A DNA stretch of 40,254 nucleotides from Armatimonadota bacterium. Its GTDB lineage: Bacteria > Armatimonadota > Fimbriimonadia > Fimbriimonadales > Fimbriimonadaceae. Below the pieces are notes generated by a model that did no database searches, was not told where the DNA came from, and saw only the letters and a program-made list of their open reading frames with translations. The stretch is from positions 1 through 40,254 of the forward strand of contig JANYLD010000270.1 in NCBI GenBank assembly GCA_025363835.1, read 5' to 3'. Within the stretch, counting starts at the first letter, position 1, and every line of letters begins with the position of its first letter. The position numbers and the translations under genes were made by a program. Of the stretch, positions 2,450 through 21,905 are shown piece after piece.

Positions 2450-5400
2450 TCACTTCGTCTTTCCACCGCCCTTCCTTCCAGATCCGGGCTTCCCCTCCTT
2501 TGAAGGAGGGGCCAGGGGTGGATGAACTCCCTCGTCTCCAATGGCGGTCTTGGCGCCTGCCATGGAAACTTCCTTCTTCGGCCGACCGCGGCCACGCTTC
2601 GGGATAGCCGCAACGGCCGCCTCATTGGCCATCTCAGTCAGATCGGCGTCTGCGCTAGAAAACGGCTCAACATGCTCGTCTCCGTGGTCGCGTCCTCCCC
2701 GGTGGCAATCCTCGATCTCCCGGCAATCACAAGATCCGGGCTCGGCCGGCCGATCAATGCAAACGATCACCGACCGGATCTCCGTCCCGCTCTCGCTGAA
2801 CGCGCCCGCAGGCAACCCCTCAACCGTCGCCCCATGCGCCTCCAGGAACGCCCGGAAAGCAACGCTCTTGGCGTTCTCCCGGAACTGCCATCCAGGGCTC
2901 ATCACCGATACAAGCCGTCCGCCCGGTTTCACGAACTTAAGGGCATGGAGAACATGATCAATATCCTGCTGTCCGGAGAACGGCGGATTCATCACCACGC
3001 GGTGGTACATCTGATGAGAGAGGTCCATCTGCAAGAAGTCCCCCTCGATCGCCGTGAACCCCATCGCCTTCAATTCACCGACAAACAACGGATGAATCTC
3101 AACGCAGATCAGCCCCCCGTGGGGCCGGAGGCGCACTGCCGTTGCAATGGCGCCCTTCCCCGCCGAAGGCTCAAGAACCGTGTCCTCGCGACCAATCTCG
3201 GCCAAATCGCAAAGCCGCACGGCAATATCCATTGGAGTCGGAAAGAACTGCAGCTCCTTCTTCAGATCGACCACCCGCCCCGTCGTCAAGCAACTCTGCA
3301 GCCGCTCCTCCGGGTCCGCGTCATCAAACACATGCCCCTTCGCCTTCCGATTCCACCGCCCGCCAAGGTTCTCCAGCACCTTGTTAACCCGCTCATAAAG
3401 CTTCCGCTCAAGCTGCCCATCCGGGAGCAAAAGCGTCTTCCCCTCCACCCGGCACCGAGCCAGAACATCAAGCACGTCCTGATCGATCGGCGTCCCCTTG
3501 CACTCACGTGCAGAAGCAACTTCCAAAGGCGTCGGATCAACCGCACCGGCCTCCGCCCATCTCTCCGAGCCTATATGTCCTAAAGGTCCTATATGTCCTA
3601 TTTCCGGGTCGGTTGGCCCCGCATCGCCGTCGCCCGACGCCTCCGCAAACTCTGGATCGTCAGATCCATCCCGGATAGCCGCGTCAGCGTCGTATCGGGA
3701 CTCATCGCTCAGAGTCTCAAGCTCCGCAATCACCGTCTCGATCGGCGGATCAGCAAGCCCGTTCTTCTCCCGAGCATCGGCAATAATGTCTTCTGCAACT
3801 TCTCTGGTAGGGTCATTCCCGCGAAGCCGCCCGTCAGCGTAGGCAAGCGCTTTTTCCGCTTTCTGGAAGAAAGCAGCGGCAGAGCCATATTCGAGATCTG
3901 CGGCCTTGATCGACTCATCACTGATCGAAGACCACACGGCCTTGACCTGCTCGCCCGTAAGCCCTTCTTCAGAGCCCCATCGTTGCCGGATCTCATAAGC
4001 CAAAGCGTCCTCATCCTCAGGCTCAGCACTCGGCCCTTTCTTCCTCGCCTTCGGCGCCGGCTTCAAATCAAGCGGCTGAATCGCCGCGCGAGGGTCCTGC
4101 CTAAGTCCCTTCTCGATGTCCTTCTTCGCGCTCGAGGAAAGCAACTCGTAATCCGCTTCCTTCCGGATCAGGTCCACGTCGCAATTCAAGACCTCGGCAA
4201 ACGAGCACAGAACAAAACCTGCAGGCTTCGAGCCATCCTTAAAGGAGATCTCGTCATAGGTGGCCGCGATGAACATCGCCCGCCAGGCATCCGACTCCGA
4301 GACCTTCTCCAATCGCTCAGGCTTTAGCGATCGCCGCAGGTCATAGCCGTAGCCCTTCAGCCCCAGCGTCTTCGCCGCCTCATCCCGCCCCGGATGCCGG
4401 GCCGCGTCCTGGGTATCACCAACCGAGTTGGCATCCATGATCGCGCACTTGACAGCCACCGCCGCCAGGAGCCAGGGCGTCTTCTCCCGAAGCGCCTTCA
4501 TCGTCTCCGCGGCCGGCTTGGTCAACTCGGCGAGGCAGAACTCGTACACCGCAAACCGGGTCGTCTGCTCAACTTTGTATTGCCTCAGTTCCTCCCGCCG
4601 CTCCGGGGTTACCCCGCTGGAAGAAGCGGCCGTCCCATCCGCTTTCACGTTCTTGGGAGCGACCCAGATCTGCTCAAGAGTCTTCTTCCCTCCGTGCATG
4701 ACCAGAGCCGGAATGGCCCCCTGATCGCCCTCGGCGACCTTCTTGAATTTGGAGCTGTACGTATCGAGATCTTCTAAGTCATTGCGTCCCGAGTACCCAG
4801 TTGAGACGAGGATCGGCTTCGCACCCGTTGAACTCTCAACCTCAGCCACGCGCCGGGCCTCAAACGCCTTCTTCTTGTCCTCGTAGCATCCAGGATCAGA
4901 ACACCGGTCGTCCTTCCCCACCACGAGGTCCGCAAAGAGCGCGTTCTCAGCCCCCATCCGCTTCGGACAGGTCGTGCAAGGCCCGGCCATCGGCAGCAGC
5001 TCCGCGTCGTCCTTTTTCCAAGGCGCCGCGGAGAGCTTGCCGAGCACAGACTCTTGTATCCACTCAATGAGCACCGCGACCGGCGTAAGGTTGCCATTCC
5101 ATCGGTTGAGGCAGTAGGCCAGAGCATCGGACTGTTGTTCCGGCTGCAGCCGCGCGATCGGCACCGCATGATGCGCCGTGATCTTGCCTTCCGCGAGAGC
5201 ATCCCGCACTTCCGGGATGAGGTCCCCCAGCTTCATCCGCTGGTAAACGTAAGAGCTCGTCCGCCCGATCTTCTGAGCGATCTTCTCCCTTGCCGCAGTC
5301 CCCGTCCCGTAATATCCCGAGTCCACGAGCCGCCGATACCCAACCGCTTCTTCAAGTGGCGTCACGTCCTTCCGCTGGTTGTTCTCAATGACCTGGATCT

Positions 5401-5827
5401 CCAGCAGTTGACCATCGGAAAGATTCCGAATCATCGCCGGAATGCTCGTCATCCCCGCAATCTTCGAAGCCCGCCAACGCCTCTCGCCGGCCGCTATCTC
5501 ATAAGCGGCCAAAGAGTCTTCCCCCGCCCCGGGGGAAGTACCCGCAGGGGGATGGGGGCGTTCACCGCTTGCCCCCTTCATTGGGCGAACGACGATCGGC
5601 TGCAGCACCCCGTGCTCGGCGATCGACTTAGCCAACTCATTAAGATCGTCCTCGTTGAATACCGTTCGAGGATTGGTCGGCGACTTGAAGATCACCGCCA
5701 AAGCCAACTCCGGCTCAAACCCCTCCGCCACCACAATGTGAGGCCTGTCATCCTGAGCGGAGCGAAGGACCTCGGCCAAGACCGCCGTCTCAACGCCCAA
5801 GACCTTCTCTTTCGTCTTGCCGGCCAT
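2450..5827 (-). CDS. ParB/RepB/Spo0J-domain protein fused to an N6-adenine DNA methyltransferase (1125 aa)
   Basis: The N-terminal ParB/Srx domain runs from about residue 45 to 160, with NPRTVF, GERRWRAS near 113-120 and IENNQRKDVTPLEEA near 150. A KorB/ParB-like HTH region (IAQKIGRTSSYVYQRM) follows. A cysteine cluster near 280-320 (CTTCPKR, CSDPGCYEDKKK) may bind metal. The C-terminal 170 residues are an adenine methyltransferase with EPSAGKGAIAT (SAM site, near 887) and NPPF (near 945). ParB-methylase fusions occur in phages and mobile elements, where they are thought to combine DNA binding or CTP hydrolysis with modification; the exact role here is inference. The gene contains several in-frame repeat-derived segments, described separately. 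First gene of the minus-strand operon. Confidence 0.85.
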   Translation of the reverse strand: MAGKTKEKVLGVETAVLAEVLRSAQDDRPHIVVAEGFEPELALAVIFKSPTNPRTVFNEDDLNELAKSIAEHGVLQPIVVRPMKGASGERPHPPAGTSPGAGEDSLAAYEIAAGERRWRASKIAGMTSIPAMIRNLSDGQLLEIQVIENNQRKDVTPLEEAVGYRRLVDSGYYGTGTAAREKIAQKIGRTSSYVYQRMKLGDLIPEVRDALAEGKITAHHAVPIARLQPEQQSDALAYCLNRWNGNLTPVAVLIEWIQESVLGKLSAAPWKKDDAELLPMAGPCTTCPKRMGAENALFADLVVGKDDRCSDPGCYEDKKKAFEARRVAEVESSTGAKPILVSTGYSGRNDLEDLDTYSSKFKKVAEGDQGAIPALVMHGGKKTLEQIWVAPKNVKADGTAASSSGVTPERREELRQYKVEQTTRFAVYEFCLAELTKPAAETMKALREKTPWLLAAVAVKCAIMDANSVGDTQDAARHPGRDEAAKTLGLKGYGYDLRRSLKPERLEKVSESDAWRAMFIAATYDEISFKDGSKPAGFVLCSFAEVLNCDVDLIRKEADYELLSSSAKKDIEKGLRQDPRAAIQPLDLKPAPKARKKGPSAEPEDEDALAYEIRQRWGSEEGLTGEQVKAVWSSISDESIKAADLEYGSAAAFFQKAEKALAYADGRLRGNDPTREVAEDIIADAREKNGLADPPIETVIAELETLSDESRYDADAAIRDGSDDPEFAEASGDGDAGPTDPEIGHIGPLGHIGSERWAEAGAVDPTPLEVASARECKGTPIDQDVLDVLARCRVEGKTLLLPDGQLERKLYERVNKVLENLGGRWNRKAKGHVFDDADPEERLQSCLTTGRVVDLKKELQFFPTPMDIAVRLCDLAEIGREDTVLEPSAGKGAIATAVRLRPHGGLICVEIHPLFVGELKAMGFTAIEGDFLQMDLSHQMYHRVVMNPPFSGQQDIDHVLHALKFVKPGGRLVSVMSPGWQFRENAKSVAFRAFLEAHGATVEGLPAGAFSESGTEIRSVIVCIDRPAEPGSCDCREIEDCHRGGRDHGDEHVEPFSSADADLTEMANEAAVAAIPKRGRGRPKKEVSMAGAKTAIGDEGVHPPLAPPSKEGKPGSGRKGGGKTK
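2492..2511. repeat. Hairpin repeat encoding the HPPLAPPSKEG peptide in the ParB-methylase tail
   Basis: A perfect 9-bp stem (CCCCTCCTT / AAGGAGGGG) with a 2-base loop, followed by CCAGGGGTGG. In the ParB-methylase frame it encodes GVHPPLAPPSKEG, a peptide I recognise as commonly produced when a dispersed GC-rich palindromic repeat is translated. Confidence 0.75.
3669..3700. repeat. 32-nt hairpin repeat, copy 1 (inside the ParB-methylase gene)
   Basis: Begins TCCCGGATA and ends TATCGGGA. The inner stem is CGC/GCG around a GTCA loop. It is translated in frame on the minus strand as part of SRYDADAAIRDG. It has the same plus-strand orientation as the six other copies. Confidence 0.8.
5518..5538. 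repeat. GC-rich palindromic repeat in the ParB domain
   Basis: A perfect 9-bp stem CTTCCCCCG / CGGGGGAAG with a CCC loop, followed by CCCGCAGGGGGATGGGGG. It encodes the proline/glycine-rich insert GERPHPPAGTSPGAGED directly before the conserved YEIAAGERRW of the ParB domain, so it interrupts a normally compact domain in frame. Confidence 0.7.
5747..5774. repeat. GTCATCCTGAGCG-type dispersed repeat in the 5' end of the ParB gene
   Basis: The segment reads GTCATCCTGAGCGGAGCGAA on the plus strand. I recognise this as a dispersed bacterial intergenic repeat word. Here it is translated in frame as LRSAQDDR near residue 20 of the ParB-methylase protein. Confidence 0.55.
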
Positions 5828-5872
5828 CAGAGCACCGCCCCATCAAGCTCAAAATCTTGAGCATCAGCGAAA

Positions 5873-5905
5873 TCCCGGATAGGCGCGACAAGCGCCGTAT
5901 CGGGA
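5873..5905. repeat. 32-nt hairpin repeat, copy 2 (upstream of the ParB-methylase gene)
   Basis: TCCCGGATA ... TATCGGGA with an inner stem GGCGC/GCGCC and loop GACAA (33 nt, one base longer than the others). It lies 46 bases upstream of the ParB-methylase ATG. Just beyond it (5909-5940) ACAATCA-type words repeat with 6-8 base spacing. A 54-codon open frame without a clear start reads through both on the minus strand and ends overlapping the ParB-methylase ATG. Confidence 0.8.
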
Positions 5906-6008
5906 TGAAATCTACAATCAACAATCACAATCAGCCTCTCAATCTCCCGCGGACCCCACGCCGCCCAGTGCCCCGTTTTGCGGTACGCTAACAGAGTTCA
6001 AGTTCCTA

Positions 6009-6040
6009 AGCCCGGCGCCGCCCACACGGAAAGCCGGGCT
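6009..6040. terminator. GC-rich hairpin with T run, likely terminator
   Basis: Perfect 8-bp stem AGCCCGGC / GCCGGGCT with a 16-base loop, followed on the plus strand by TTTT. It lies just past the stop of the 81-aa minus-strand gene and could end that transcript, though the T run is on the plus strand. A short plus-strand RNA ending here is the alternative. Confidence 0.5.
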
Positions 6041-6048
6041 TTTCCATT

Positions 6049-6294
6049 TCAATCCGCCTTCTTCCCCTCCACCACCCGCGCATGCTCCGCCCTAGCCCAT
6101 TCGCCTTGGTCCTTCACCGCCCGCCCGACCTGGTACTTCTCAATCTTCATGTCCCTCGCAACGGCCGACTTGACTCCCCTTCCTTCCCCTCGCCGGACAA
6201 CCTCCAAAGCGATGGCCCGGTCCCGCTCCTCGATGGCCCTCTTCCGGGCTTCGGTGGGGTCCGGCAAACTTACGGGCTTGTGATTCTGTAGCAT
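6049..6294 (-). CDS. Small basic protein divergent from the repressor, possible Cro-like or accessory regulator (81 aa)
   Basis: The 81-residue product is highly charged. It has an Arg/Glu-rich first half (ARKRAIEERDRAIALEVVRRG) and a possible helix-turn-helix in AVARDMKIEKYQVGRAVK. I do not recognise the family. It is transcribed away from the XRE/S24 repressor, and its start codon lies inside an operator-like palindrome (6288-6303). That is the position of a Cro-like antagonist or lysis-lysogeny accessory factor; the role is inferred only from that position. No strong ribosome-binding site is visible, and the ATG overlaps the operator, so a very short leader is possible. Confidence 0.55.
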   Translation of the reverse strand: MLQNHKPVSLPDPTEARKRAIEERDRAIALEVVRRGEGRGVKSAVARDMKIEKYQVGRAVKDQGEWARAEHARVVEGKKAD

Positions 6295-6309
6295 AGACGC
6301 TACAATTGT
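6288..6309. promoter_or_regulatory. Operator-like palindrome O1 (GTAGC-N6-GCTAC-AATTGT)
   Basis: Perfect 5-bp inverted repeat GTAGC / GCTAC with 6-base spacer, followed by AATTGTA. The same palindrome plus AATTGT recurs at 7519-7540. Both sites flank the repressor gene region, so these are the best candidates for repressor operators. Confidence 0.75.
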
Positions 6310-6349
6310 ATACGTTGTGATAGCGGCAGTAGCACCTCGGTTTGTGCAA

Positions 6350-7120
6350 ATGCACCGCAATTTCTCGGTGCGCCGCTCGAAAACACCCCCGGAAAACCTA
6401 ACCGCGCTTGCCAAGTGGCTCCGCCGAGTTCGCATCGTCAACGAGCTCGAGCAAGTTGAGATGGCCGCGCGGGTCGGCGTTAGCAGGTCTCTGATAAGCG
6501 CTATGGAACGCGGCGAGCGGGACGTCCAATTGGAGACGGTCAATGCCGTGCTGGGCGCCTTCCCAGACGCCCCTCCCCCACCCATGGGAGACGCTCTTCA
6601 GTTCAGGGGCCCAGTGCTTGCGGACAACAAGATCAGCACCATCCGATACGTGGGCGTTGTCCCCTGCGATGAGGATTGGGGAGAAGCTCTGGAAGGGCAA
6701 GATTTCGTGCCGATCGATCCCAAATTCGCTGGCAAGAATCGATTTCTCGCTCGCGTTGCCGGCCCTTCATGCGAGCCCGCACTTCACCAAGGAGACCTCG
6801 TCATCTGGGAGCACGACAAAGCTCCGCCCTACGGCGTGATCGTTCTCGCCGAGCGCGATGGCGATTCGGCGTGCACGGTAAAGCAGCTCGTGAAAGGAAA
6901 AGACGATGAGCCGACGCTAAGGCCCGTCAATCCAAAATCGAAAGCGCCAAACCCCGAGCCCGGATGGCACGCGACGGCGCGCCTGGTCGGCGTCATCCGG
7001 CAGGCCGATGGGCCAGAAGCCTCACTCTATTGGTCACCGGGATTAAAGCCGGAGCACCTCATCCGTGAGCCCTTAATGACGGCCGCCGAGCACCGAGCCC
7101 CCTACGGCGACTCGAAGTAG
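6350..7120 (+). CDS. XRE-family repressor with S24 (LexA/CI-type) peptidase domain
   Basis: Phage-type master repressor, 256 aa from the ATG. Residues 18-70 form an HTH_3 domain (VEMAARVGVSRSLISAMERG). Residues 125-215 are an S24 peptidase, with nucleophile S140 in AGPSCEPALHQGD and general-base lysine K178 in CTVKQLV. LexA and lambda CI use this Ser-Lys pair for RecA-stimulated self-cleavage, so DNA-damage induction of the element is likely. The cleavage dipeptide is not obvious. A GTG at 6317 would add 11 residues, but no ribosome-binding site supports either start. The gene is divergent from the 81-aa gene, and operator-like palindromes flank the region. Confidence 0.85.
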   Translation: MHRNFSVRRSKTPPENLTALAKWLRRVRIVNELEQVEMAARVGVSRSLISAMERGERDVQLETVNAVLGAFPDAPPPPMGDALQFRGPVLADNKISTIRYVGVVPCDEDWGEALEGQDFVPIDPKFAGKNRFLARVAGPSCEPALHQGDLVIWEHDKAPPYGVIVLAERDGDSACTVKQLVKGKDDEPTLRPVNPKSKAPNPEPGWHATARLVGVIRQADGPEASLYWSPGLKPEHLIREPLMTAAEHRAPYGDSK

Positions 7121-7122
7121 GC

Positions 7123-7452
7123 TCACGGGCGCGGTCGCTTGAAGATGTAGTCGTAGTACTGCGTGTCGCCGCCGTCCACGTCGGGAGTGATCGCAGCGAG
7201 CTCCCAGCCGCCATTGCTCGCATCTTTAAGGTCCTGCGCCTGGCCCCGACGGAGCACCTTCATCAAATCCAGTTCCGCTGTCTCCGTCACCGTGCCATGC
7301 TGCACCTGCTCTCTCCAAATTTGGTAGTCCCATTTCTTCACTGCCAAGGGTGCCGCCGCTGTCGTAGAGCGAGCCGTTTGGGAAGCGCCGATGCCAACGA
7401 TGATGCCGGCGAGAAGCATGCCCAGCGTTCGAGATGAAAGATCAATTGTCAT
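7123..7452 (-). CDS. Secreted or anchored DUF4177-like small protein (109 aa)
   Basis: An N-terminal hydrophobic segment (residues 8-24, LGMLLAGIIVGIGAS) looks like a signal peptide or membrane anchor. The rest carries the features of DUF4177-type proteins: a WDYQIW strand at the start, DLKDASNGGWELAAITP in the middle and YYDYIFKRP at the end. Function unknown in the family. It is convergent with the repressor (2 bases apart) and divergent from the plus-strand operon, with its promoter region shared with operator O2. That makes it a candidate lysogeny-expressed (moron) gene. Confidence 0.65.
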   Translation of the reverse strand: MTIDLSSRTLGMLLAGIIVGIGASQTARSTTAAAPLAVKKWDYQIWREQVQHGTVTETAELDLMKVLRRGQAQDLKDASNGGWELAAITPDVDGGDTQYYDYIFKRPRP

Positions 7453-7518
7453 GACATCAATTCTGGTCTAAGGCATTTGCCCCTACGCACTGTGCTACAA
7501 CTGCACTCTACATAATTC

Positions 7519-7540
7519 GTAGCACTGATGCTACAATTGT
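7519..7540. promoter_or_regulatory. Operator-like palindrome O2 (GTAGC-N6-GCTAC-AATTGT)
   Basis: GTAGC / GCTAC inverted repeat with 6-base spacer followed by AATTGT, matching O1 in stem and right flank but with a different spacer. It ends 3 bases before a TATAAT box, so a bound repressor would cover the promoter of the early operon. Confidence 0.75.
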
Positions 7541-7543
7541 GTG

Positions 7544-7549
7544 TATAAT
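7544..7549 (+). promoter_or_regulatory. -10 box TATAAT of the plus-strand operon
   Basis: Consensus TATAAT 38 bases before the TTG start of the first operon gene. No good -35 match is seen at normal spacing, so the promoter may be weak or need an activator. Confidence 0.55.
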
Positions 7550-7587
7550 GTCTTCGTGGGCCCCGCAAGGGGCGATGGAGACAAAAC

Positions 7588-8118
7588 TTGAACGTAACAA
7601 CAGAACAGCCGGCCAAGCGGCTCACCCTCTTGGAACTCGCCCAACACGCGGCCGCCGAACGCGATCGCGGTAACGCCGAAATCCGGATCGCCCTACAAGC
7701 CAAAGAACGCGAGGCAAGCCACGCTTGGATCCTCGCCAAACTTCGCACATTACTCCCTAACGACTTCGCTCTTGAGCACCGAATCGAAGTCGGCGACGGC
7801 ATCATCCTCGATGAGATCAAGTTCTCGCGAGAGAGAAAGGCGAGCCCGCATCTCCCCGACGACGGATGGCAACTGATTGCCGAGATCGAAGGCTGCAAAG
7901 CCACCGTCATCGAGACCCTCGCAGACATCGCCGCCGCCAACGTCATCGACGCCGAATTCACCTTGACGTCCGTGGAAGAGGTAGCGGAGGAACTCCTCAA
8001 GATCGTCCGCCAGTTCCTCAACGCCTACGAAGGCACCCCCTGCGAGGAGTCCTTGCTCTACATCGGCGCCCAGCAGTTCCTATCCGCGCACGGGCTCATG
8101 GAAGAGGTGCCCGCGTGA
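7588..8118 (+). CDS. Unrecognised first protein of the element's plus-strand operon (176 aa)
   Basis: I do not recognise the family. It is acidic and mostly helical in composition. An Ala/Glu/Arg-rich start (LTLLELAQHAAAERDRGNAE) precedes a mixed central part (EHRIEVGDGIILDEIKFSRE, then WQLIAEIEGCKATVIETLAD) and a helical C-terminus with LKIVRQFLNAYEG. No signal peptide or membrane segment is present. The start is taken at TTG because a GGAG box precedes it at proper spacing, and the nearby ATG (7575) opens only a short out-of-frame ORF. Its stop overlaps the GTG start of the next gene. It is the first gene behind operator O2, so it is probably expressed early. Confidence 0.75.
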   Translation: MNVTTEQPAKRLTLLELAQHAAAERDRGNAEIRIALQAKEREASHAWILAKLRTLLPNDFALEHRIEVGDGIILDEIKFSRERKASPHLPDDGWQLIAEIEGCKATVIETLADIAAANVIDAEFTLTSVEEVAEELLKIVRQFLNAYEGTPCEESLLYIGAQQFLSAHGLMEEVPA

Positions 8119-8675
8119 ACTCCCCTCAACCAAGCAATGGAGCGTCAGCGACATCCCGGATAGACGCGACAGCGACGTATCGGGACCGGCAACCGGCAAC
8201 CTGTCCGCCGAAGCGCCCCGGCGAAGGAGGAACCGGCAACCGAGACATCCCCACATCCCCACATCCCCACATCTCTCTACACCAAGTCCCCGGCACTCCG
8301 ATCGTCGTCACCCTCCGAGCCCTCCCCGAGTGGCCGGAGGGGATGCCGGAATTCTCCCGCGGCTGCATGCTCAAACTCGGCGAGATCGTCGGCGTGGTCG
8401 AATGCACTCGCCCTCGCCGAGTCATCGCCCGCCACCCAGGCGGCGGCCAAACCCAATTCGGCGCCGGCCACATCCGCGCCTACCACCCCGCCCTCGAAGT
8501 CGCCAAGCGAGCCAAAGGCGACTACCGCGAAGCCGTCCTCGAAGAGTTCCAATACCTCGCCAACCACCCCAAACCCGCCACCGCCGAAGAAGCCCGAACG
8601 GTCATCGAGTGGTTGAGCGCCAGCGAAATCCCGGATAAGCGCGACAGCGCGAGATCGGGACTGGAGGCGAAATGA
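8115..8675 (+). CDS. Unrecognised protein with repeat-derived ends (186 aa)
   Basis: GTG start overlaps the preceding stop (GTGA), and the stop overlaps the next ATG (ATGA). The first 60 residues are encoded almost entirely by repeats: the 32-nt hairpin (SRIDATATYRDR), GGCAACC words and an ACATCCCC array (IPTSPHPHIS). The last 15 residues come from another 32-nt hairpin (EIPDKRDSARSG). The core between them (residues 60-170) looks like a normal small domain, with VVTLRALPEWPEG, CMLKLGEIVGVVECTRPRRVIARH and a helical end. Function unknown. Repeat insertion at both ends of one coupled gene suggests the termini tolerate variation. Confidence 0.6.
   Translation: MNSPQPSNGASATSRIDATATYRDRQPATCPPKRPGEGGTGNRDIPTSPHPHISLHQVPGTPIVVTLRALPEWPEGMPEFSRGCMLKLGEIVGVVECTRPRRVIARHPGGGQTQFGAGHIRAYHPALEVAKRAKGDYREAVLEEFQYLANHPKPATAEEARTVIEWLSASEIPDKRDSARSGLEAK
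8154..8185. repeat. 32-nt hairpin repeat, copy 3
   Basis: TCCCGGATA ... TATCGGGA with inner stem CGC/GCG around GACA. Preceded by AATGGAGCGTCAGCGACA, a 5' flank shared with copies 5 and 6. It lies 39 bases after the GTG start of the 186-aa gene. Confidence 0.85.
8249..8278. repeat. ACATCCCC octamer array
   Basis: Three perfect 8-base units plus a partial fourth, translated in frame as IPTSPHPHIS. The same unit forms the array in the recombinase gene at 14686-14717. Confidence 0.8.
8629..8660. repeat. 32-nt hairpin repeat, copy 4
   Basis: TCCCGGATA ... GATCGGGA with inner stem GCGC/GCGC around GACA. It ends 11 bases before the ATG of the sigma-like gene and encodes the C-terminus of the preceding gene. 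Confidence 0.8.
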
Positions 8676-9157
8676 ACGTCACCTACAGAGAAGAAATGGC
8701 CTGGGCCGAAGCCCGCGCCAAGCTCCGAGCCCGCCACTACAGCCAGTGCCCCGGCGACCAGGCCGACTTCGTCCAGGCCGCGCGGATCAAAGCCCACAAG
8801 CTGATCACGCGCCCCGAAGGATGCCACCGGGCCATCCTCACCACCGCGATCTACAACGCGATCAAAGACGAAGCCAAGAAGCTCCGAGGCTACCGAGCCG
8901 GCGAGTGCGCGTACGAGCTGCTCACGGTCCAAGCGCCACAAACCGAGGATGACCAAATCCTCGTGGACCAAATCTTCAAGGTTCTCACCCCGGCCGAAGC
9001 CTACGTGATCGAGAAGAACGCGCAAGGCTACACCACCCGCCAGATCGGCAAGACGCTCAACGTCGCCGGCCCCACGGTAAGCGCCCGTATCAGCAAAGCC
9101 GTCGCCCACGCCCGCAACGTCCTCGTCGGCTCCCCCTTCGAAGGGAGAGCCGCATGA
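8672..9157 (+). CDS. Sigma-factor-like DNA-binding protein (161 aa)
   Basis: The C-terminal half resembles sigma region 4 / LuxR-type HTH: LTPAEAYVIEKNAQGYTTRQ, then a helix-turn-helix (IGKTLNVAGPTVSARISKAVA). The N-terminal half is helical (AEARAKLRARHY, then FVQAARIKAHKLI and AILTTAIYNAIKDEAKKLRG), where a small sigma factor would have region 2. Many phages carry such ArpU/sigma-like late-gene activators. This is the likeliest role, but region 2 motifs are weak. It could switch on a later operon of the element. Coupled to both neighbours by ATGA overlaps. Confidence 0.7.
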   Translation: MNVTYREEMAWAEARAKLRARHYSQCPGDQADFVQAARIKAHKLITRPEGCHRAILTTAIYNAIKDEAKKLRGYRAGECAYELLTVQAPQTEDDQILVDQIFKVLTPAEAYVIEKNAQGYTTRQIGKTLNVAGPTVSARISKAVAHARNVLVGSPFEGRAA

Positions 9158-9660
9158 GACGCCCCACAGATCAAAACCGCCGCTTCGCCCGAGCCCTTGT
9201 CAAAAGGGATCCGACTTGGACGGAGGAAAACCGGCAATCAAGCAACCGGCAACCCAGCAACCGAAGTGGCCGAGCAACCAAGCAACCAAAAACCAAGCAA
9301 CCGAAAGCTCCTAAGGAAGGAACCCCAATGCGCGCGCCAAAACGCAAATCCACCAGACCCGAAGCCAAGCACTTTCTCATCCGAGACCAGTGGTACGAAG
9401 TCCAACCGGACGGCCACGGCGCCTACGCCAAGTCGTATGCAGTCGATTGCAAAGCCACCAAAACCATGGTCGGCGCCGTCACCCGGTCGCAGAACAAAGA
9501 AGGCATCTGGTACGCCAACGGCCCCTCCAACTTCCACGACCTAAAAGAAGCCGTCGAGGACCTCGTAGTCAATGGAGCGCCAGCGACATCCCGGATAAAG
9601 CCGGAAGGCTGCGATCGGGATGGGCAGAAAACCGCTCCTGTCAAGGAGGCGAAATCATGA
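9154..9660 (+). CDS. Unrecognised protein, N-terminal part repeat-derived (168 aa, or 110 aa from the ATG at 9328)
   Basis: The upstream ATG overlaps the stop of the sigma-like gene, but residues 29-55 are encoded by an AGCAACC-type repeat array (RQPSNR, TKQPKTKQPK). A second ATG at 9328 has a good AAGGAAGG ribosome-binding site and begins the part that looks like a folded protein (HFLIRDQWYEVQ, SYAVDCKATKTM, GIWYANGPSNFHDLKEAVED). The real protein may therefore start at 9328. The C-terminus (SRIKPEGCDRDG) is again hairpin-repeat-derived. Family and function not recognised. Confidence 0.55.
   Translation: MRRPTDQNRRFARALVKRDPTWTEENRQSSNRQPSNRSGRATKQPKTKQPKAPKEGTPMRAPKRKSTRPEAKHFLIRDQWYEVQPDGHGAYAKSYAVDCKATKTMVGAVTRSQNKEGIWYANGPSNFHDLKEAVEDLVVNGAPATSRIKPEGCDRDGQKTAPVKEAKS
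9232..9305. repeat. AGCAACC/GGCAACC short-period array
   Basis: About nine degenerate copies of AGCAACC or GGCAACC at 7-8 base spacing, interrupted once. They are translated as a basic Gln/Pro/Lys-rich linker. Confidence 0.75.
9589..9620. repeat. 32-nt hairpin repeat, copy 5
   Basis: TCCCGGATA ... GATCGGGA. The inner stem changes to AGCC/GGCT around a GGAA tetraloop, so both arms changed together. It lies upstream of the AAGGAGG ribosome-binding site of the next gene. Confidence 0.85.
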
Positions 9661-9872
9661 CCCGCGAGGATCGCATCGCCGCAGCCCGCGAGAAGGTCGG
9701 GAACGAAAACCCAACGGTAAAGGATCTCTTCGCCGCCCTCGCCGAGTCGATCGCACAACGCAAGGCCGACACGGAGCGCCGAAGGCCGCTCGTATCAAGC
9801 GCCGCCTGTCCCAGCTGCGGAGTCGTCTGCGGCCACGACGACACTTGCCAGATCGGCGGAGGTCAGAAGTGA
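9657..9872 (+). CDS. Small putative zinc-binding protein (71 aa)
   Basis: An ATG with a strong AAGGAGG box overlaps the preceding stop. The helical first part (MTREDRIAAAREKVG, then TVKDLFAALAESIAQRK) is followed by a Cys/His cluster, CPSCGVVCGHDDTC. That could form a small zinc site. Family not recognised. Its stop overlaps the GTG start of the next gene. Confidence 0.6.
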   Translation: MTREDRIAAAREKVGNENPTVKDLFAALAESIAQRKADTERRRPLVSSAACPSCGVVCGHDDTCQIGGGQK

Positions 9873-10147
9873 AAGAAGAAACCGGCCGAATCATAGATGC
9901 CCTTGTCGGCTCCGCCATAGACGACACGCTCCCACTGAAAGGCACCGTCGTTCCCTTCATCCCAAAGCCGAACAGCGCAACGGGGCATCGCATGGACCAC
10001 GTCCCCTCAATCCTCGGAGGCGATTGGCCAATGGAGGACACAACCCCACAAGGAGAACCTCCCTGGCAGCTCACCCTCGCGACCCTCGCCATGATCGCCC
10101 TCGTCGCCCTCGTCTTCGCCTTCTTCATTTCCGGAGGACGCCCATGA
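9869..10147 (+). CDS. Small single-pass membrane protein (92 aa)
   Basis: The start is GTG overlapping the previous stop (GTGA). The first 65 residues are soluble and proline-rich. Residues 67-87 are a clear hydrophobic helix (LATLAMIALVALVFAFFISG), so this is a C-terminally anchored protein. Not recognised. The final codons overlap the ATG of the next gene. Confidence 0.55.
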   Translation: MKEETGRIIDALVGSAIDDTLPLKGTVVPFIPKPNSATGHRMDHVPSILGGDWPMEDTTPQGEPPWQLTLATLAMIALVALVFAFFISGGRP

Positions 10148-10482
10148 AGAAAACCCCGGAACCCAGGGTAGCTCAAGCCTCCAGGCTTGAGGAAACCAAA
10201 GCCTCCAGGCTTGAGGAGAAAGAGAGCGCCAGAAAGAGGGGCATCGCCCCTGCGTCGTTCGCCCACTTCCAGATCGCCGTGTTTCCAGACGGCGCCGCCG
10301 AGGTCCAGAACCTCGACCATGACTCATCACGCCCGCCGCGCCTCGCCAAGGCCACCCCGGCCCGCTGGCTCCACAACAGCGCCGGCGAGTGCATCGGCCC
10401 CAATCCCAACTACACGTCGATCGCCAGAGAGATCCCGGATGAGCGCGCAAGTGTGACATCGGGACCAACAGGAGGCAAATAA
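10144..10482 (+). CDS. Unrecognised small protein with tandem ASRLEE repeats (112 aa)
   Basis: The ATG has a GGAGG box and overlaps the preceding stop. Residues 12-26 contain a duplicated peptide (QASRLEETKASRLEEKE) encoded by two copies of the palindrome CAAGCCTCCAGGCTTG or its truncated form. The middle (FAHFQIAVFPDGAAEVQNL) looks like a beta-rich small domain. The last residues (EIPDERASVTSG) are encoded by the 32-nt hairpin copy 7. Function unknown. It lies immediately upstream of the RecT gene. Confidence 0.55.
   Translation: MKKTPEPRVAQASRLEETKASRLEEKESARKRGIAPASFAHFQIAVFPDGAAEVQNLDHDSSRPPRLAKATPARWLHNSAGECIGPNPNYTSIAREIPDERASVTSGPTGGK
10174..10213. repeat. Duplicated palindrome CAAGCCTCCAGGCTTG
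   Basis: Two copies of an AAGCCT/AGGCTT inverted repeat lie 26 bases apart and encode the duplicated ASRLEE peptide. Confidence 0.7.
10433..10464. repeat. 32-nt hairpin repeat, copy 7 (upstream of recT)
   Basis: TCCCGGATG ... CATCGGGA: the A-T pair at the base of the inner part is replaced by G-C, a compensatory change. The inner loop is GCAA with G-U pairs in the stem. It sits just before the recT ribosome-binding site AGGAGG and ATG. Confidence 0.85.
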
Positions 10483-10483
10483 C

Positions 10484-11599
10484 ATGGCCGCACCAGCCAC
10501 AACCGAACTCGCCACTCACGCTCCCCTGCCCGCCGTTTACGAAAGCTACGAGGCAGCCCAACAGGCAAGGGAAGAGCGGTACCAGCTCTACCTTCGCGAC
10601 GAAAAGACGCTCAGGGCCACCGTGTGCAAATCGGCAACCCCCGACCAGTTCTTGCAGTTCTGCCGGGTCGCCGCCGACAACCAGCTCAATCCCTATCTGA
10701 AGCAAATATGGTACGTCGAGGGCATTGGGGTCTTGACCGGCCGCGACTCCTACATCGTTTGCGCTCAACGCCGGCAGGATTACGAAGGCTTCATCTCCCA
10801 GGTCGTTTGCGAGAACGATGATTTCGAGATGGACGCCGCCACGAACACCGTCATCAAGCACACATACAAAGGGTCCCGCGGCGCCGTCCTCGGCGCCTAC
10901 GCGATCGGCTACCGGAAAGGCTGCAAGCCGGCCCACTTCTACGCGCCCTTTGAGCAATACAACAAGCCGGGCAACCCCGCATGGAAGACCTACCCCTTCG
11001 CAATGATCCTCACGAAAGCCGAGTCGAACATGATGCGGCGGCAGTTCCCGATCGACGGCCTATTCATCGCTGATTCGCGGGAATTCGATCTTGAGGAGAG
11101 GGAGTACAAAAAAGCCTACATCGCACAGGGCGACTTCGATCCTTACGGCGACGGGCGCACGAATCCAGAAGCTCTTACAGCGCCTGAAGGATCACCCAAC
11201 GCCTCCGACCCGTCCGCCGAAGCTTTAGCGAAGGAGGAAGCCAGCCCCTTCGATGACGACAAGGAAGCCTTGGGCTACAAATTCGCCACCTGGCCCAAAG
11301 GCGAATGGTTCGACCAAGCCGCCACCGAGCAGCAGGTCAAGCACATCGCCCTCCAAAGCAAAGAGCGCGGCGTCCCCGAGGATCTCCGCCGCTACGTCGC
11401 CCACGCCATCCTCCAAGGCGTCGCCGCCCCCAGCGTCGACATCACCGAGGAAGAGCCCTACAGCACCAAGAAACTCAACAAAGGCCAAGCCTCCCTCGTC
11501 ATCGACTTCCTCAAGAAAGCCACTGACGATTCCGTCAGCGCCGCCACCCAATCCGGCCAACAGATCCACGACCAATACAAGGAGGAAGCCGGGCTCTAA
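10484..11599 (+). CDS. RecT/Bet-family single-strand annealing protein
   Basis: Anneals complementary single strands during phage recombination and replication. The 371-aa product has the RecT/Bet core in the first 215 residues: DQFLQFCRVAADNQLNPYLKQI, then IGVLTGRDSYIVCAQRRQDYEG, the conserved beta region, and FAMILTKAESNMMRRQFPIDG. The C-terminal 150 residues are acidic and probably contact host replication or SSB proteins. The ATG follows AGGAGG at good spacing. No partner exonuclease (YqaJ/RecE type) is visible nearby, which is unusual because the two are normally adjacent. The exonuclease may lie outside the window or be a host enzyme. Confidence 0.85.
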   Translation: MAAPATTELATHAPLPAVYESYEAAQQAREERYQLYLRDEKTLRATVCKSATPDQFLQFCRVAADNQLNPYLKQIWYVEGIGVLTGRDSYIVCAQRRQDYEGFISQVVCENDDFEMDAATNTVIKHTYKGSRGAVLGAYAIGYRKGCKPAHFYAPFEQYNKPGNPAWKTYPFAMILTKAESNMMRRQFPIDGLFIADSREFDLEEREYKKAYIAQGDFDPYGDGRTNPEALTAPEGSPNASDPSAEALAKEEASPFDDDKEALGYKFATWPKGEWFDQAATEQQVKHIALQSKERGVPEDLRRYVAHAILQGVAAPSVDITEEEPYSTKKLNKGQASLVIDFLKKATDDSVSAATQSGQQIHDQYKEEAGL

Positions 11600-11651
11600 G
11601 CCCTCAGCCTTCCGCCGTCATCCTTCATCCCTAAAAAACACCCCCGCCCAC

Positions 11652-11675
11652 GGCCTGTACACGCGTGTGCAGGCC
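11652..11675. promoter_or_regulatory. 24-bp near-perfect palindrome between recT and the KTSC gene
   Basis: GGCCTGTACACG / CGTGTGCAGGCC with one wobble mismatch. It lies in the only sizeable gap of the operon and is followed by the AAAGGA ribosome-binding site of the KTSC gene. It could be a protein-binding site or an RNA processing/attenuation hairpin; there is no T run. Confidence 0.55.
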
Positions 11676-11700
11676 CCCAACTTTCAAAAGGAAAACAGAA

Positions 11701-12219
11701 ATGAACGCAACAGAAACCCAAGACAAATCCGAAATCCAAGAGATCGTGGACAACCGGATGGAAAAGGGCGGCTTCGCCTCCGATGCTGCCGAGTTCGCTG
11801 ACTTCATCGAGAATGGTAACGCCGGGCCTACAGGACCTACGGGACCAACCGGACCTACCGCTCTCAAACCCGAGATCACGCCGGCCGGATGGAACCGCAT
11901 TGTGCAAATCCTCGCCGACGAAGCCTTCTACAACGAGCACGCGGACGGCCTGATTCTCGGCAAGGCCTCCTCCACCATCAAGGGCATCGCCTACGACAAG
12001 GATCTCTGCATCCTCTACGTCGAGTTCTGGTCAGGTGCCCTCTACGGTTATGGCGCCGTCCCCCAAGGAGTCTTTCGCAAACTTTCCGAGATCGCCAAAG
12101 AAGGCGGCTCCCTTGGCCAGGCGCATCACCTCTACATCAAGAAGAAATCCGATCCGCCCTACCCGTTCGCGAAACTCCGCGACACCAAGATTCAGGAGGA
12201 CCCAACGCCCAAGGCCTAA
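11701..12219 (+). CDS. KTSC-domain protein with collagen-like GPT repeat (172 aa)
   Basis: The C-terminal 70 residues match the KTSC domain (SSTIKGIAYDKDLCILYVEF, then YGYGAVPQGVFRKL and the end HHLYIKKK). This is a small domain found alone or next to nucleases in phages, function unproven. Residues 41-53 are a collagen-like Gly-Pro-Thr run encoded by 9-base repeats. The N-terminus (IQEIVDNRMEKGGFASDAAEF) is a separate short helical region. The ATG is preceded by AAAGGA. Probably a DNA-metabolism accessory, by analogy only. Confidence 0.75.
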   Translation: MNATETQDKSEIQEIVDNRMEKGGFASDAAEFADFIENGNAGPTGPTGPTGPTALKPEITPAGWNRIVQILADEAFYNEHADGLILGKASSTIKGIAYDKDLCILYVEFWSGALYGYGAVPQGVFRKLSEIAKEGGSLGQAHHLYIKKKSDPPYPFAKLRDTKIQEDPTPKA

Positions 12220-12353
12220 CGCCTAACGCCCTCCTAAAACGAGGTTGGTCCCCGACGCAAAAAAGGACCATCCACCGGCCCGGTCGATTCCCACAAATGC
12301 CTCCTCAATCGCCGGGCCAAGAATTCCCCAAACCCAACAACCAAGCAACCGCC
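12220..12353. other. Gap between KTSC gene and the 68-aa gene
   Basis: Starts with three GCCTAAC-type heptamers overlapping the KTSC stop and ends with AACAACC/AAGCAACC words directly before the next ATG. In between I see only an open frame with no clear start. Confidence 0.4.
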
Positions 12354-12560
12354 ATGACCATCGAGTTCACCCACCAAGCCACCGGCCACGGCCTAGACAC
12401 CTGGGTCGGCTGCACCGTCCTCCCCCCGATCGGAGGCCACGTCACCCTCCACGACGGCATTAAATACCAAGTCGCCGACGTCCACATCAACGCCCACTCC
12501 AAAGACGCCGCCGAAGTCATCGTCTGGGCCCGGCCCGTGCCGACGGAGGCCACGAAGTGA
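12354..12560 (+). CDS. Unrecognised small protein (68 aa)
   Basis: Begins MTIEFTHQATGHGLDTW. Its composition suggests a small beta-strand protein (GCTVLPPIGGHVTLHDGIKY, then ADVHINAHSKDAAEVIVWAR). There is no membrane segment. The start has no Shine-Dalgarno box, because the repeat words run up to the ATG. The stop overlaps the GTG start of the DUF1643 gene (GTGA). Function unknown. Confidence 0.55.
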   Translation: MTIEFTHQATGHGLDTWVGCTVLPPIGGHVTLHDGIKYQVADVHINAHSKDAAEVIVWARPVPTEATK

Positions 12561-13078
12561 TCCGAAAGGCCGACATTTCGTCATGCGGTCGCTTCCGATT
12601 CGGTTTAGAGCGGATATGGGAACCTGGCCTAAAGATAAAGACGGTCTGTTTCGTCATGCTGAACCCTTCAACGGCGGACGCGGAGGCAGACGACCCGACA
12701 ATCCGCAAGTGCATCTCGTTCGCTAAGGAATGGCGGTGTGGTGCGCTGATCGTGGTGAACCTATATCCGTACCGTGCTACTGATCCGAGAGAGCTGAAGA
12801 AGATCGGCTACATGCGAGGGCGCGAGTATGCGGACGCAAGAGCCGAAAACCTTAAGGCGTGGAAGAGCGCGAACGCCCGCGCAGGTCTGGTGATTGCGGC
12901 ATGGGGAACGAATGCTCAATTCCTAGAAACCGAGCTGGCAAAAGGGTTCTTCCCCTATTGTTGTCGCATCGGTGAAGCGTCGAAGGATGGGCACCCACAG
13001 CACCCGCTTTACCTGCCGCTAGCAAGCCTCCCCAAATACCACTTTCAACACGGAAAGACCATTGGGGTCCAGCCATGA
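12557..13078 (+). CDS. DUF1643 family protein (173 aa)
   Basis: The sequence matches DUF1643: FVMLNPSTADAEADDPTIRK near residue 30, NLYPYRATDPREL in the middle, and a C-terminal H/P-rich segment (GHPQHPLYLPL). The family is widespread in phages and bacteria, with no established biochemical role. Base composition is slightly lower in GC than the neighbouring genes. The start is GTG overlapping the preceding stop, and the stop overlaps the next ATG, so the gene is in the same coupled operon. Confidence 0.85.
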   Translation: MIRKADISSCGRFRFGLERIWEPGLKIKTVCFVMLNPSTADAEADDPTIRKCISFAKEWRCGALIVVNLYPYRATDPRELKKIGYMRGREYADARAENLKAWKSANARAGLVIAAWGTNAQFLETELAKGFFPYCCRIGEASKDGHPQHPLYLPLASLPKYHFQHGKTIGVQP

Positions 13079-13335
13079 GCAGTGATCCTTTCGACGAATC
13101 AGCCTCCAAGATCATCGACGCCTGGTATCAGCGGCCGGCCGGATTTGCCCAGTTCGATTCAAGGGCAATCGCAAGTTTGAGCGGAGTCGTCGCCCACTAC
13201 CTGCGACAGGCTAAAGCCGATGGCTGGTCCGAGGGTTACGACAAGTGCTTCAACACACCCGCCACAGAGAAACGCCCCCCGAATCCTTACGCAACTCCAA
13301 CCAAGCAACCGGCAACCCAACAACCCAGCAACTGA
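13075..13335 (+). CDS. Unrecognised small protein with repeat-encoded tail (86 aa)
   Basis: The ATGA start overlaps the DUF1643 stop. The first 60 residues are helical and look real (DESASKIIDAWYQRPAGFAQ, then AIASLSGVVAHYLRQAKADG). The tail TPTKQPATQQPSN is encoded by the AGCAACC/GGCAACC array, and the stop falls inside that array. Function unknown. Confidence 0.5.
   Translation: MSSDPFDESASKIIDAWYQRPAGFAQFDSRAIASLSGVVAHYLRQAKADGWSEGYDKCFNTPATEKRPPNPYATPTKQPATQQPSN
13295..13335. repeat. AGCAACC/GGCAACC short-period array
   Basis: Five degenerate copies at 7-8 base spacing. They end at the stop of the 86-aa gene, and the next gene's ATG follows one base after that stop. Confidence 0.75.
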
Positions 13336-13336
13336 A

Positions 13337-13519
13337 ATGTCCGCTTTTCCACAGACCACCCAACAGCCGGCGTGCGATAATGCGCACGAGGCGAGGCCGT
13401 GTCCGTGGAACGACGAGGAACGCCGATCGCTCGCAAACTTCTTCCGAATCCTGAGAGAGATCAAAGAGCAAAATGAAACGAAAGATCGAAGTCAAATTCA
13501 CACTGGAAATGGAGCCTGA
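13337..13519 (+). CDS. Unrecognised small protein (60 aa)
   Basis: Starts one base after the preceding stop. The product is MSAFPQTTQQPACD followed by a charged helix (WNDEERRSLANFFRILREIK). The start sits directly against the repeat array and has no ribosome-binding site. It overlaps the next ORF by 47 bases, so at most one of the two may be fully real, though phage genes do overlap this way. Confidence 0.35.
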   Translation: MSAFPQTTQQPACDNAHEARPCPWNDEERRSLANFFRILREIKEQNETKDRSQIHTGNGA

Positions 13520-13670
13520 GGTCCTGGAAAGAATCGAAGACAAATACGAATCGATGAACGCCTACCTGATGGGCATTCTAAACGCCGCCATCGAATCCGA
13601 GCGCCTAACGCCCTCCCCCAACCAAGCAACCCTGCAACCGGCAATGGAGCGCCAGCGACATCCCGGATAG
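13473..13670 (+). CDS. Unrecognised small protein, possible ribbon-helix-helix type (65 aa)
   Basis: MKRKIEVKFTLEMEPEVLER followed by a second helix (YESMNAYLMGILNAAIESE) has the strand-helix-helix look of an Arc/MetJ-like protein. The first strand is short, so this is a guess. The last 20 residues are encoded by repeat words and the 32-nt hairpin, and the stop codon lies within the hairpin arm. Confidence 0.45.
   Translation: MKRKIEVKFTLEMEPEVLERIEDKYESMNAYLMGILNAAIESERLTPSPNQATLQPAMERQRHPG
13618..13645. repeat. AGCAACC/TGCAACC short-period words
   Basis: Three copies preceding hairpin copy 6. This is the same pairing of AGCAACC words and hairpin as at 8128-8192. Confidence 0.6.
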
Positions 13671-13692
13671 ACGCGACAGCGACGTATCGGGA
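13661..13692. repeat. 32-nt hairpin repeat, copy 6 (upstream of the recombinase)
   Basis: Identical in its 32 bases to copy 3 and preceded by the same AATGGAGCGCCAGCGACA flank. It lies 13 bases before the recombinase ATG. Confidence 0.85.
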
Positions 13693-15307: not shown

Positions 15308-15342
15308 GAGGGCGATGTCCTAAACCGCTAGACGACCGGAGC
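15266..15342 (-). tRNA. tRNA-Glu (anticodon CTC), integration site of the element
   Basis: Read on the minus strand it gives a 7-bp acceptor stem, a D-loop TCGTCTAGCGGTTTAGGA, an anticodon stem TCGCC/GGCGG with loop CTCTCAC (anticodon CTC), a T-arm with GGTTCGAATCC, and an encoded ACCA end. The first acceptor pair is G1-U72 rather than the usual G-C. The 3' half overlaps the end of the recombinase ORF. The element lies on the 3' side of the tRNA and so supplies that half. Confidence 0.93.
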
Positions 15343-15384
15343 GTGGACGCTGATTTGTACCCGATTTGGGGGGTGCTTAGCAAG

Positions 15385-15545
15385 CGTTGAGCCTTAAGCG
15401 TTGAGCCTTGCGCCTTGGCCCTAAGAGTTAAACCTCGACCTTGGGATTAGGCCCGGACCTTGTACTTAGGCTCAAGGCTCAGGGCTAAAGGCTCAAGGCT
15501 TAGGGCTCAAGGCTCAAGGCTCAAGGCTCAAGGCTCAACGCTTCA
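15385..15545. repeat. Array of 23 heptamers with a mid-array strand flip
   Basis: Exactly 161 bases divide into 23 units of 7. The first units are GTTGAGC/CTTAAGC type, the middle is degenerate, and the last eleven are GCTCAAG type, the reverse complement of the first in register. The two arms could form a long imperfect hairpin. The array ends at the last base of the cytochrome gene's stop codon. Confidence 0.9.
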
Positions 15546-21717: not shown

Positions 21718-21852
21718 CAGGAGATTCACCTATCGGTTCTGCGCTGGCGACTTTCTCGATACACGCGGACCATCGCTTGGTGCATGCAAAGGCTTCTATC
21801 TGCGTGGAAAGCGCTTGTGGCTTAGAAAGCTCCCGGAACCCCCATCCCCAGC

Positions 21853-21905
21853 CCTTCCCCCTCTCCTGGCACGAACATCCAGGACAAGGGGAAGGGAGTT
21901 TTTTA
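21853..21905 (+). terminator. Terminator downstream of the macrodomain gene, built from a dispersed repeat
   Basis: Imperfect inverted repeat CCTTCCCCCTCTCCTGG / CCAGGACAAGGGGAAGG followed by GAGTTTTTTAG. The CCCATCCCCAGCCCTTCCCC flank marks it as a member of the CCCC-rich palindromic repeat family also seen in the ParB gene. Confidence 0.7.

Follow-up and report, generated by a model that had tools for sequence, protein, structure and literature searches.

Seven sites in a prophage-like element of an Armatimonadota bacterium probably each hold an insertion of the same mobile repeat, which is non-autonomous and consists of two abutting single-strand hairpins; it would be moved in trans, most likely by a Y1/HUH enzyme. 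The element occupies the first 15.3 kb of a 40,254-nt stretch of DNA (positions 1 to 40,254, forward strand, contig JANYLD010000270.1, assembly GCA_025363835.1), the whole of which is referred to here as the window. The source genome comprises 3.71 Mb in 419 contigs and is about 89% complete.

The repeat unit and its copies in the window

The initial annotation of this DNA described seven hairpins in the same orientation, and all were recovered on the plus strand at 3669, 5873, 8154, 8629, 9589, 10433 and 13661; that at 5873 has 33 nt and the other six have 32 nt, as described. Each begins with TCCCGGAT and ends with ATCGGGA, and the loops read GTCA, GACAA, GACA (three copies), GGAA and GCAA. 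This hairpin (hairpin B) is genuine but is not the complete unit. Alignment of the window copies with those from the rest of the genome revealed 16 additional conserved nucleotides upstream of it, T[C/G/T]GAGCGNCAGCGANA, which form a second hairpin (hairpin A, TSGAGCGNCAGCGANA) directly abutting hairpin B on its 5′ side, giving a conserved unit of 48 nt (49 nt once). A chance origin of the set is excluded, since a reversed control pattern had no match in the genome and the seven copies score 62–73 bits under the covariance model, with nothing else in the window above 12.5 bits. The copies are as follows.

3653..3700, plus strand: copy 1; hairpin A at 3653-3668, with Watson-Crick pairs throughout, and hairpin B at 3669-3700; antisense to the ParB-methyltransferase gene, within its linker and in frame
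5857..5905, plus strand: copy 2; hairpin B of 33 nt (5873-5905); just upstream of the start codon of the minus-strand open reading frame (ORF) 2450-5827
8138..8185, plus strand: copy 3; hairpin B 8154-8185; inside a CAACCAAGCAA^CCGGCAACC spacer in an intergenic gap
8613..8660, plus strand: copy 4; hairpin B 8629-8660; within the final codons of an ORF ending at 8675
9573..9620, plus strand: copy 5; hairpin B 9589-9620, with AGCC/GGCT as inner stem; within the final codons of an ORF ending at 9660
10417..10464, plus strand: copy 6; hairpin B 10433-10464, of chromosomal-type sequence; in the last codons of an ORF ending at 10482
13645..13692, plus strand: copy 7; hairpin B 13661-13692; almost the same as copy 3 in sequence; immediately 5′ of the serine recombinase gene

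The hairpins at 8629, 9589 and 10433 stand just before a clear Shine-Dalgarno sequence and ATG. That four of the five plus-operon copies precede a ribosome-binding site and start codon, as had been proposed, thus holds for these three; the hairpin at 13661 has an ATG 14 nt downstream without a clear Shine-Dalgarno sequence, and that at 8154 lies in a gap. Two copies had been assigned to minus-strand transcripts, and both are indeed on the minus side, with 3669 in frame inside the coding sequence and 5873 just upstream of the start of that ORF. Copy 1 corresponds to about residues 709-725 of a fusion protein whose ParB module extends to about residue 436 and whose methyltransferase module begins at about residue 750-781; the two modules are separate genes in known phages. 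The unit is thus tolerated in frame inside coding sequence, in a linker (copy 1) and in C-terminal codons (copies 4, 5, and 6), which are tolerant positions, as expected of insertions.

Window matches to the covariance model at 5403 (12.5 bits) and 10217 (8.7 bits) were regarded as noise, and a pattern match on contig C206 (L012) was dropped as it has no paired interior. No Rfam family matched the hairpins. A role as terminator was set aside because no U-tract lies 3′ of the copies.

Structure and covariation of the unit

With the alignment as sole input, RNAalifold predicts hairpin A followed by hairpin B. Hairpin A pairs positions 1-16, 2-15, 5-12, and 6-11, with a tandem G.A/A.G mismatch at 3-14/4-13 and a GNCA-type loop, which one copy replaces by ATCA. 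The mismatches have been turned into ordinary pairs in copy 1, yielding a perfect TGGATC-GTCA-GATCCA hairpin. Hairpin B has a constant one-base bulge and a GNNA loop, and 95% of its pair cells are standard. It is preceded by GANA (mostly GAGA, GACA, or GAAA), and the bases before the whole unit vary.

The compensatory changes noted initially in the inner stem of hairpin B, which differs between copies yet stays paired, are real and reach both its outer stem and hairpin A. In four chromosomal copies, the outer stem has changed from TCCC/GGGA to CTCC/GGAG (as RNA, UCCC/GGGA to CUCC/GGAG). In hairpin A, pair 2-15 is C-G in 10 copies, G-C in four, T-A in two, and G.G in two, and pair 5-12 is G-C in 16 and T-A in two. 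Double changes affect 8 of the 16 pairs across the two helices, with 24 double-changed cells observed versus 7.2 ± 2.0 in shuffled alignments, and the covariation score of both helices was reached by none of 500 shuffles. For hairpin A alone, the score likewise exceeded all shuffles, but its count of two double-changed pairs was matched by 88 of 500, so that hairpin A is supported by fewer independent changes. These counts are inflated by kinship among the copies, and more weight was placed on the pattern itself (three pair types at 2-15 and the swapped outer stem) than on the shuffles. Thus, structure-preserving change in the unit is supported as genuine.

Many copies carry GCGAAAGC or GCGAAGC loops. 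GCGAAGC forms an extraordinarily stable DNA mini-hairpin, as does the GAAA form, and such loops fit a role of the unit as single-stranded DNA.

Filled and empty insertion sites

Movement of the unit is documented by sites that exist in both occupied and unoccupied form. The copy on contig C340 is located in GGGGATG^GGGGCGAACA, next to a second, empty version of its two flanks, and the joined flanks match this version at 32 of 32 positions. For the copy on C107, the joined flanks match 31 of 32 positions of a sequence in the window outside the prophage-like element. Copies 3 and 7 have joined flanks corresponding to CAACCAAGCAACCGGCAACC spacers, which are empty near 1675, 9228, and 13291 (20 of 23 positions); random joined flanks reach 14–18. 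The empty counterparts are as follows.

13291..13333, plus strand: AACCAAGCAACCGGCAACC spacer repeat, the empty counterpart of the copy 3 and 7 sites, present also near 1675 and 9228
21833..21864, minus strand: empty insertion site of the C107 copy, with a 31/32 match to its joined flanks

The filled/empty comparisons of C340 and C107 contain no target-site duplication. The unit begins at the base of hairpin A and ends at that of hairpin B, apart from one ambiguous junction base, a G common to element and target. In all filled/empty contexts the ends are identical and no target duplication is present, indicating that the unit has moved as a whole.

Distribution in the genome and the phylum

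No hairpin had initially been seen outside the element, as if the family were confined to it. A covariance search of the source genome instead returned 20 matches at E < 1e-3, comprising the seven window copies and 13 on other contigs, and two further relics were found on C146 and C230. The copy on C40 retains hairpin B alone, and those on C340 and C48 are more diverged. The non-window copies are located at ordinary chromosomal places, as their neighbors include genes for glycyl-tRNA synthetase beta (glyS), ThiC (thiC), GcpE/IspG (ispG), alanine dehydrogenase, enoyl-CoA hydratase, and a protein kinase. All copies are single, with none paired within 200 bp. A relic at L043 1501-1529 retains hairpin A but has only TCCGGA in place of hairpin B, a collapse that looks like the outcome of hairpin skipping in replication.

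Chromosomal copies are located in (CGATTTA)n arrays or at GGGGATG^GGGG sites. The CGATTTA strand carries the unit in 8/8 full heptamer-embedded copies and the GGGGATG strand in all four others; insertion is therefore oriented relative to the target strand. GC skew, used as a proxy for the replication strand, had no consistent sign across the chromosomal copies. The initial suggestion of a DNA-level or insertion polarity is thus borne out by the precise filled and empty sites without duplication, by the antisense in-frame copy, and by the fixed orientation with respect to chromosomal target repeats.

The heptamer arrays are themselves a feature of this genome, with 161 exact 21-mer matches versus 3 in all in 84 other genomes of the family. 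Examples occur at L063 7070-7200, L065 1500-1690, L074 1424-1545, and L017 1848-1954. Unrelated cargo of 50 to 230 nt is often enclosed by two arrays in inverted arrangement, (TAAATCG)n on one side and (CGATTTA)n on the other, in the manner of repeats with array-type inverted ends. The same architecture is found in the window at 15382-15543, just outside the recombinase and tRNA-Glu, where inverted GGCTCAA-type heptamer arrays surround about 90 nt.

Beyond the source genome, the covariance search suggested by the initial annotation, run on 60 relatives and on 291 genomes of the phylum including the source, found the family in the source genome only, with no copy in the 290 others, all of which are from outside its genus. 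The single weak match, in G015, was rejected as chance, as it sits in a gene reading as a Der/EngA-type GTPase. Exact-pattern scans of IMG/VR and of GTDB genome contigs, collections that may omit near relatives of the window, returned nothing.

This distribution bears on the alternative that the hairpin is a phage-encoded regulatory RNA or DNA element (an operator, a terminator, or a hairpin for translation coupling) favored by selection at gene junctions of the element, with the chromosomal copies as secondary escapes. In favor of such a regulator are the conserved structure, the strong concentration in the element, and the position of three to four plus-operon copies immediately 5′ of a start codon. 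However, the coding sequence of one gene contains an antisense copy, the chromosomal copies are embedded in heptamer arrays beside unrelated core genes, precise empty sites exist, and no phage relative carries the unit. In addition, the chromosomal copies are more alike than the phage copies (0.85 versus 0.78), and two of the phage copies have a chromosomal copy as their nearest match. A regulatory origin is accordingly considered quite unlikely.

The prophage-like element

The first 15.3 kb of the window is judged from its gene content to be an integrative element such as a prophage, truncated on its left side and encoding a ParB/methyltransferase fusion, a helix-turn-helix (HTH)-S24 repressor, a sigma-like protein, RecT, and a serine recombinase. 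"Prophage-like" is used as the safe term because no structural phage gene was identified in the element. Its main features are listed below.

2450..5827, minus strand: ParB/DNA-methyltransferase fusion ORF, 1125 aa, with copy 1 between its two modules
6317..7120, plus strand: HTH plus S24 peptidase, CI/LexA-like repressor
10484..11599, plus strand: RecT-family single-strand annealing protein
13706..15307, plus strand: large serine recombinase (integrase), adjoining the probable right edge of the element
15266..15342, minus strand: tRNA-Glu(CTC), a probable attachment site into which the 3′ end of the recombinase ORF extends

The density of copies in the element is about 130–140 times that elsewhere in the genome. 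Neither a transposase nor an RNA-binding protein associated with the hairpins, a link that had been raised initially, was found in the window. Relatives of RecT were absent from IMG/VR by the method used, with distant ones only in known phages, and three IMG/VR contigs with ParB relatives lack the hairpin.

Other features of the element were noted in passing. ParB and a DNA methyltransferase are joined in one 1125-aa phage protein and are separate genes in the phage records matched. The linker of this gene also contains, at 3570-3605, a CCTATATGTCCTAAAGGTCCTATATGTCCTATTTCCGG stretch, a second host repeat within the gene, which resembles the cargo that heptamer arrays enclose in L063, L042, and L017. 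Tandem repeats of the octamer ACATCCCC are present at 8237-8281, in an intergenic spacer, and at 14670-14722, inside the serine recombinase gene.

Proposed mechanism of movement

The preferred model is that the unit is inserted whole, in fixed orientation to the target strand and without target duplication, by an enzyme that would act in trans on folded single-stranded DNA; this would likeliest be a Y1/HUH enzyme of the type associated with repetitive extragenic palindromes (REPs) or of the IS200/IS605 type. Preferred targets would be non-coding repeat arrays and gene junctions, and the build-up in one orientation within the prophage-like element, where the spacer repeats lie on the plus strand too, probably results from exposure of one strand during the element's own replication. 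A trans-acting Y1 enzyme is the best guess for the carrier because the unit combines features typical of single-strand processing by Y1/HUH enzymes, namely one-strand hairpins, strand-specific targets, insertion without duplication, and a bulge or mismatch that is conserved (PMC8266576, PMC6006769). The conserved unpaired bulges and the preceding motif also resemble the requirements of E. coli TnpA-REP (PMC8266576).

The genome has nine Y1_Tnp loci, of which one is an IS200 tnpA (L014) and the other eight encode proteins that match PF01797 or the NCBIfam RAYT model. The cut-off of the RAYT model was exceeded only by L017 and L021; L016 was outside that scan. Several Y1 genes adjoin their own, different palindromic repeats. 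Among these, an inverted-pair REPIN family, GCCTCCATACGCGG...CCGCGTATGGAGG, occurs at 13 places and flanks a RAYT gene on C267 (L020); in the source genome (G000) it is found on contigs C8, C10, C25, C63, C158, C178, C196, C236, C267, and C340.

Several points weigh against the proposed model. No RAYT or IS200 gene has the unit in its available flank (up to about 1.5 kb per side in this 89%-complete assembly), and no GTAG-type tag lies next to hairpin B. The uniform orientation in the window (7/7 on the plus strand) has a probability of only 0.016 if the copies are independent, which they may not be, the copies at 8138 and 13645 being near-duplicates. Moreover, with an assembly of 419 unordered contigs the polarity may follow either replication or the target's own strand, and the evidence for movement comes from filled and empty sites within one genome of the genus.

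Two alternatives were weighed here. The first is enzyme-free copying, in which hairpin-prone single strands would be annealed and copied into repeats, aided by RecT in the phage, or spread through an RNA intermediate, as proposed for the double-hairpin elements of Allomyces, whose architecture is similar (PMC2800124). The absence of duplication and of a constant target, insertion into low-complexity repeats, the RecT gene in the element, and that earlier proposal are all compatible with this explanation; the exact, constant ends at the hairpin bases and the consistent target strand suggest enzymatic cleavage instead, making it unlikely. The second is that the unit is a minimal IS200/IS605 derivative, consisting of the left-end and right-end hairpins of a Y1 transposon with the interior deleted and moved by an IS200-type TnpA. 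The strand-specific, duplication-free behavior and the two hairpins on one strand are shared with IS200/IS605 ends, and an IS200/IS605 tnpA is present (L014). However, the flanks of this sole IS200-type locus are different and contain no model match, no matching autonomous copy was found in the genome, and the target has no constant 5′ tetranucleotide (TTTA, GCAA, GATG, and others), so that this origin appears rather doubtful.

Comparison with known repeat families

Cyanobacterial small dispersed repeats, tiny palindromes of tandem-repeat-rich genomes, have been reported to insert without duplication. They are single units of 21–27 nt, unlike the 48-nt double-hairpin unit described here.

REP/RAYT systems (GTAG-REPs and REPINs; PMC2817692, PMC3116915, PMC8266576) share with the unit a short imperfect palindrome with a conserved bulge, a conserved 5′ motif, a species-restricted distribution, and location mostly at gene junctions. 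Hairpin B falls within the range of GTAG-REP palindromes (20–50 nt with a conserved stem irregularity). In contrast, no GTAG/GTRG tag is present 0–2 nt 5′ of the palindrome, no inverted doublets (REPINs) are formed, and the unit has about 20 copies, compared to typically over 100 and up to hundreds. For these three reasons it is not classified as a canonical REP and is instead a short palindromic mobile repeat of a new variety. That a canonical REP family was mobilized by a RAYT now extinct or missing from the incomplete assembly is a plausible though less likely reading, in view of the size, bulge, preceding motif, and single-species distribution (PMC8266576, PMC3733652) and because this genome harbors several RAYT/REP families besides. 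Against it, besides the above, stand the lack of a terminal CGTC tag, the lack of a RAYT gene with the unit in its available flanks, and the second, 5′ hairpin as part of the unit. The dense presence in a mobile element is a further difference, as Pseudomonas REPs avoid mobile elements, which lie in REP deserts (PMC3390384); crowding in the prophage-like element contradicts this rule and suggests that single-stranded phage DNA may be a breeding ground for such repeats. The likelihoods given to the canonical REP/RAYT and IS200-derivative explanations overlap with that of the preferred model where only the enzyme differs, and hence do not sum to one.

CGTC-tagged REPs and Rickettsia palindromic elements (PMC3733652) are likewise small palindromes that insert into genes in frame and have no known dedicated transposase. 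The unpaired terminal tag by the stem (CGTC, TGTC, or CCTC) has no equivalent in the unit, where CGTC, CGCC, or CGGC is located inside hairpin A, at or beside the loop; the CCA tail is also absent, and the stems are unrelated.

In its probable mode of action the unit resembles REP and IS200/IS605 hairpins; in architecture it parallels the double-hairpin elements of Allomyces and the repetitive hairpin elements of mitochondrial DNA, which, according to the account of Paquin 2000 given in PMC2800124, cause no target duplications and are located in tolerant parts of genes. Like the unit, they are small mobile sequences of two adjacent hairpins with intergenic or tolerant-gene insertion, but they are mitochondrial, whereas the unit resides in a bacterial chromosome and a prophage-like element; the likeness is one of architecture, and homology is not claimed. 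A bolder and doubtful proposal would be that the unit is their bacterial counterpart, a non-REP, single-strand transposing 48-nt element that multiplies preferentially on the exposed replication strand of the prophage, persists via the phage, and depends on an unusual or novel enzyme, possibly with involvement of RecT. Few mobile units as small as this one would have boundaries set by filled and empty sites in one genome, and its ends are exactly those of two hairpins; this short, defined substrate, together with the local Y1 transposases, makes REP-like movement directly testable.

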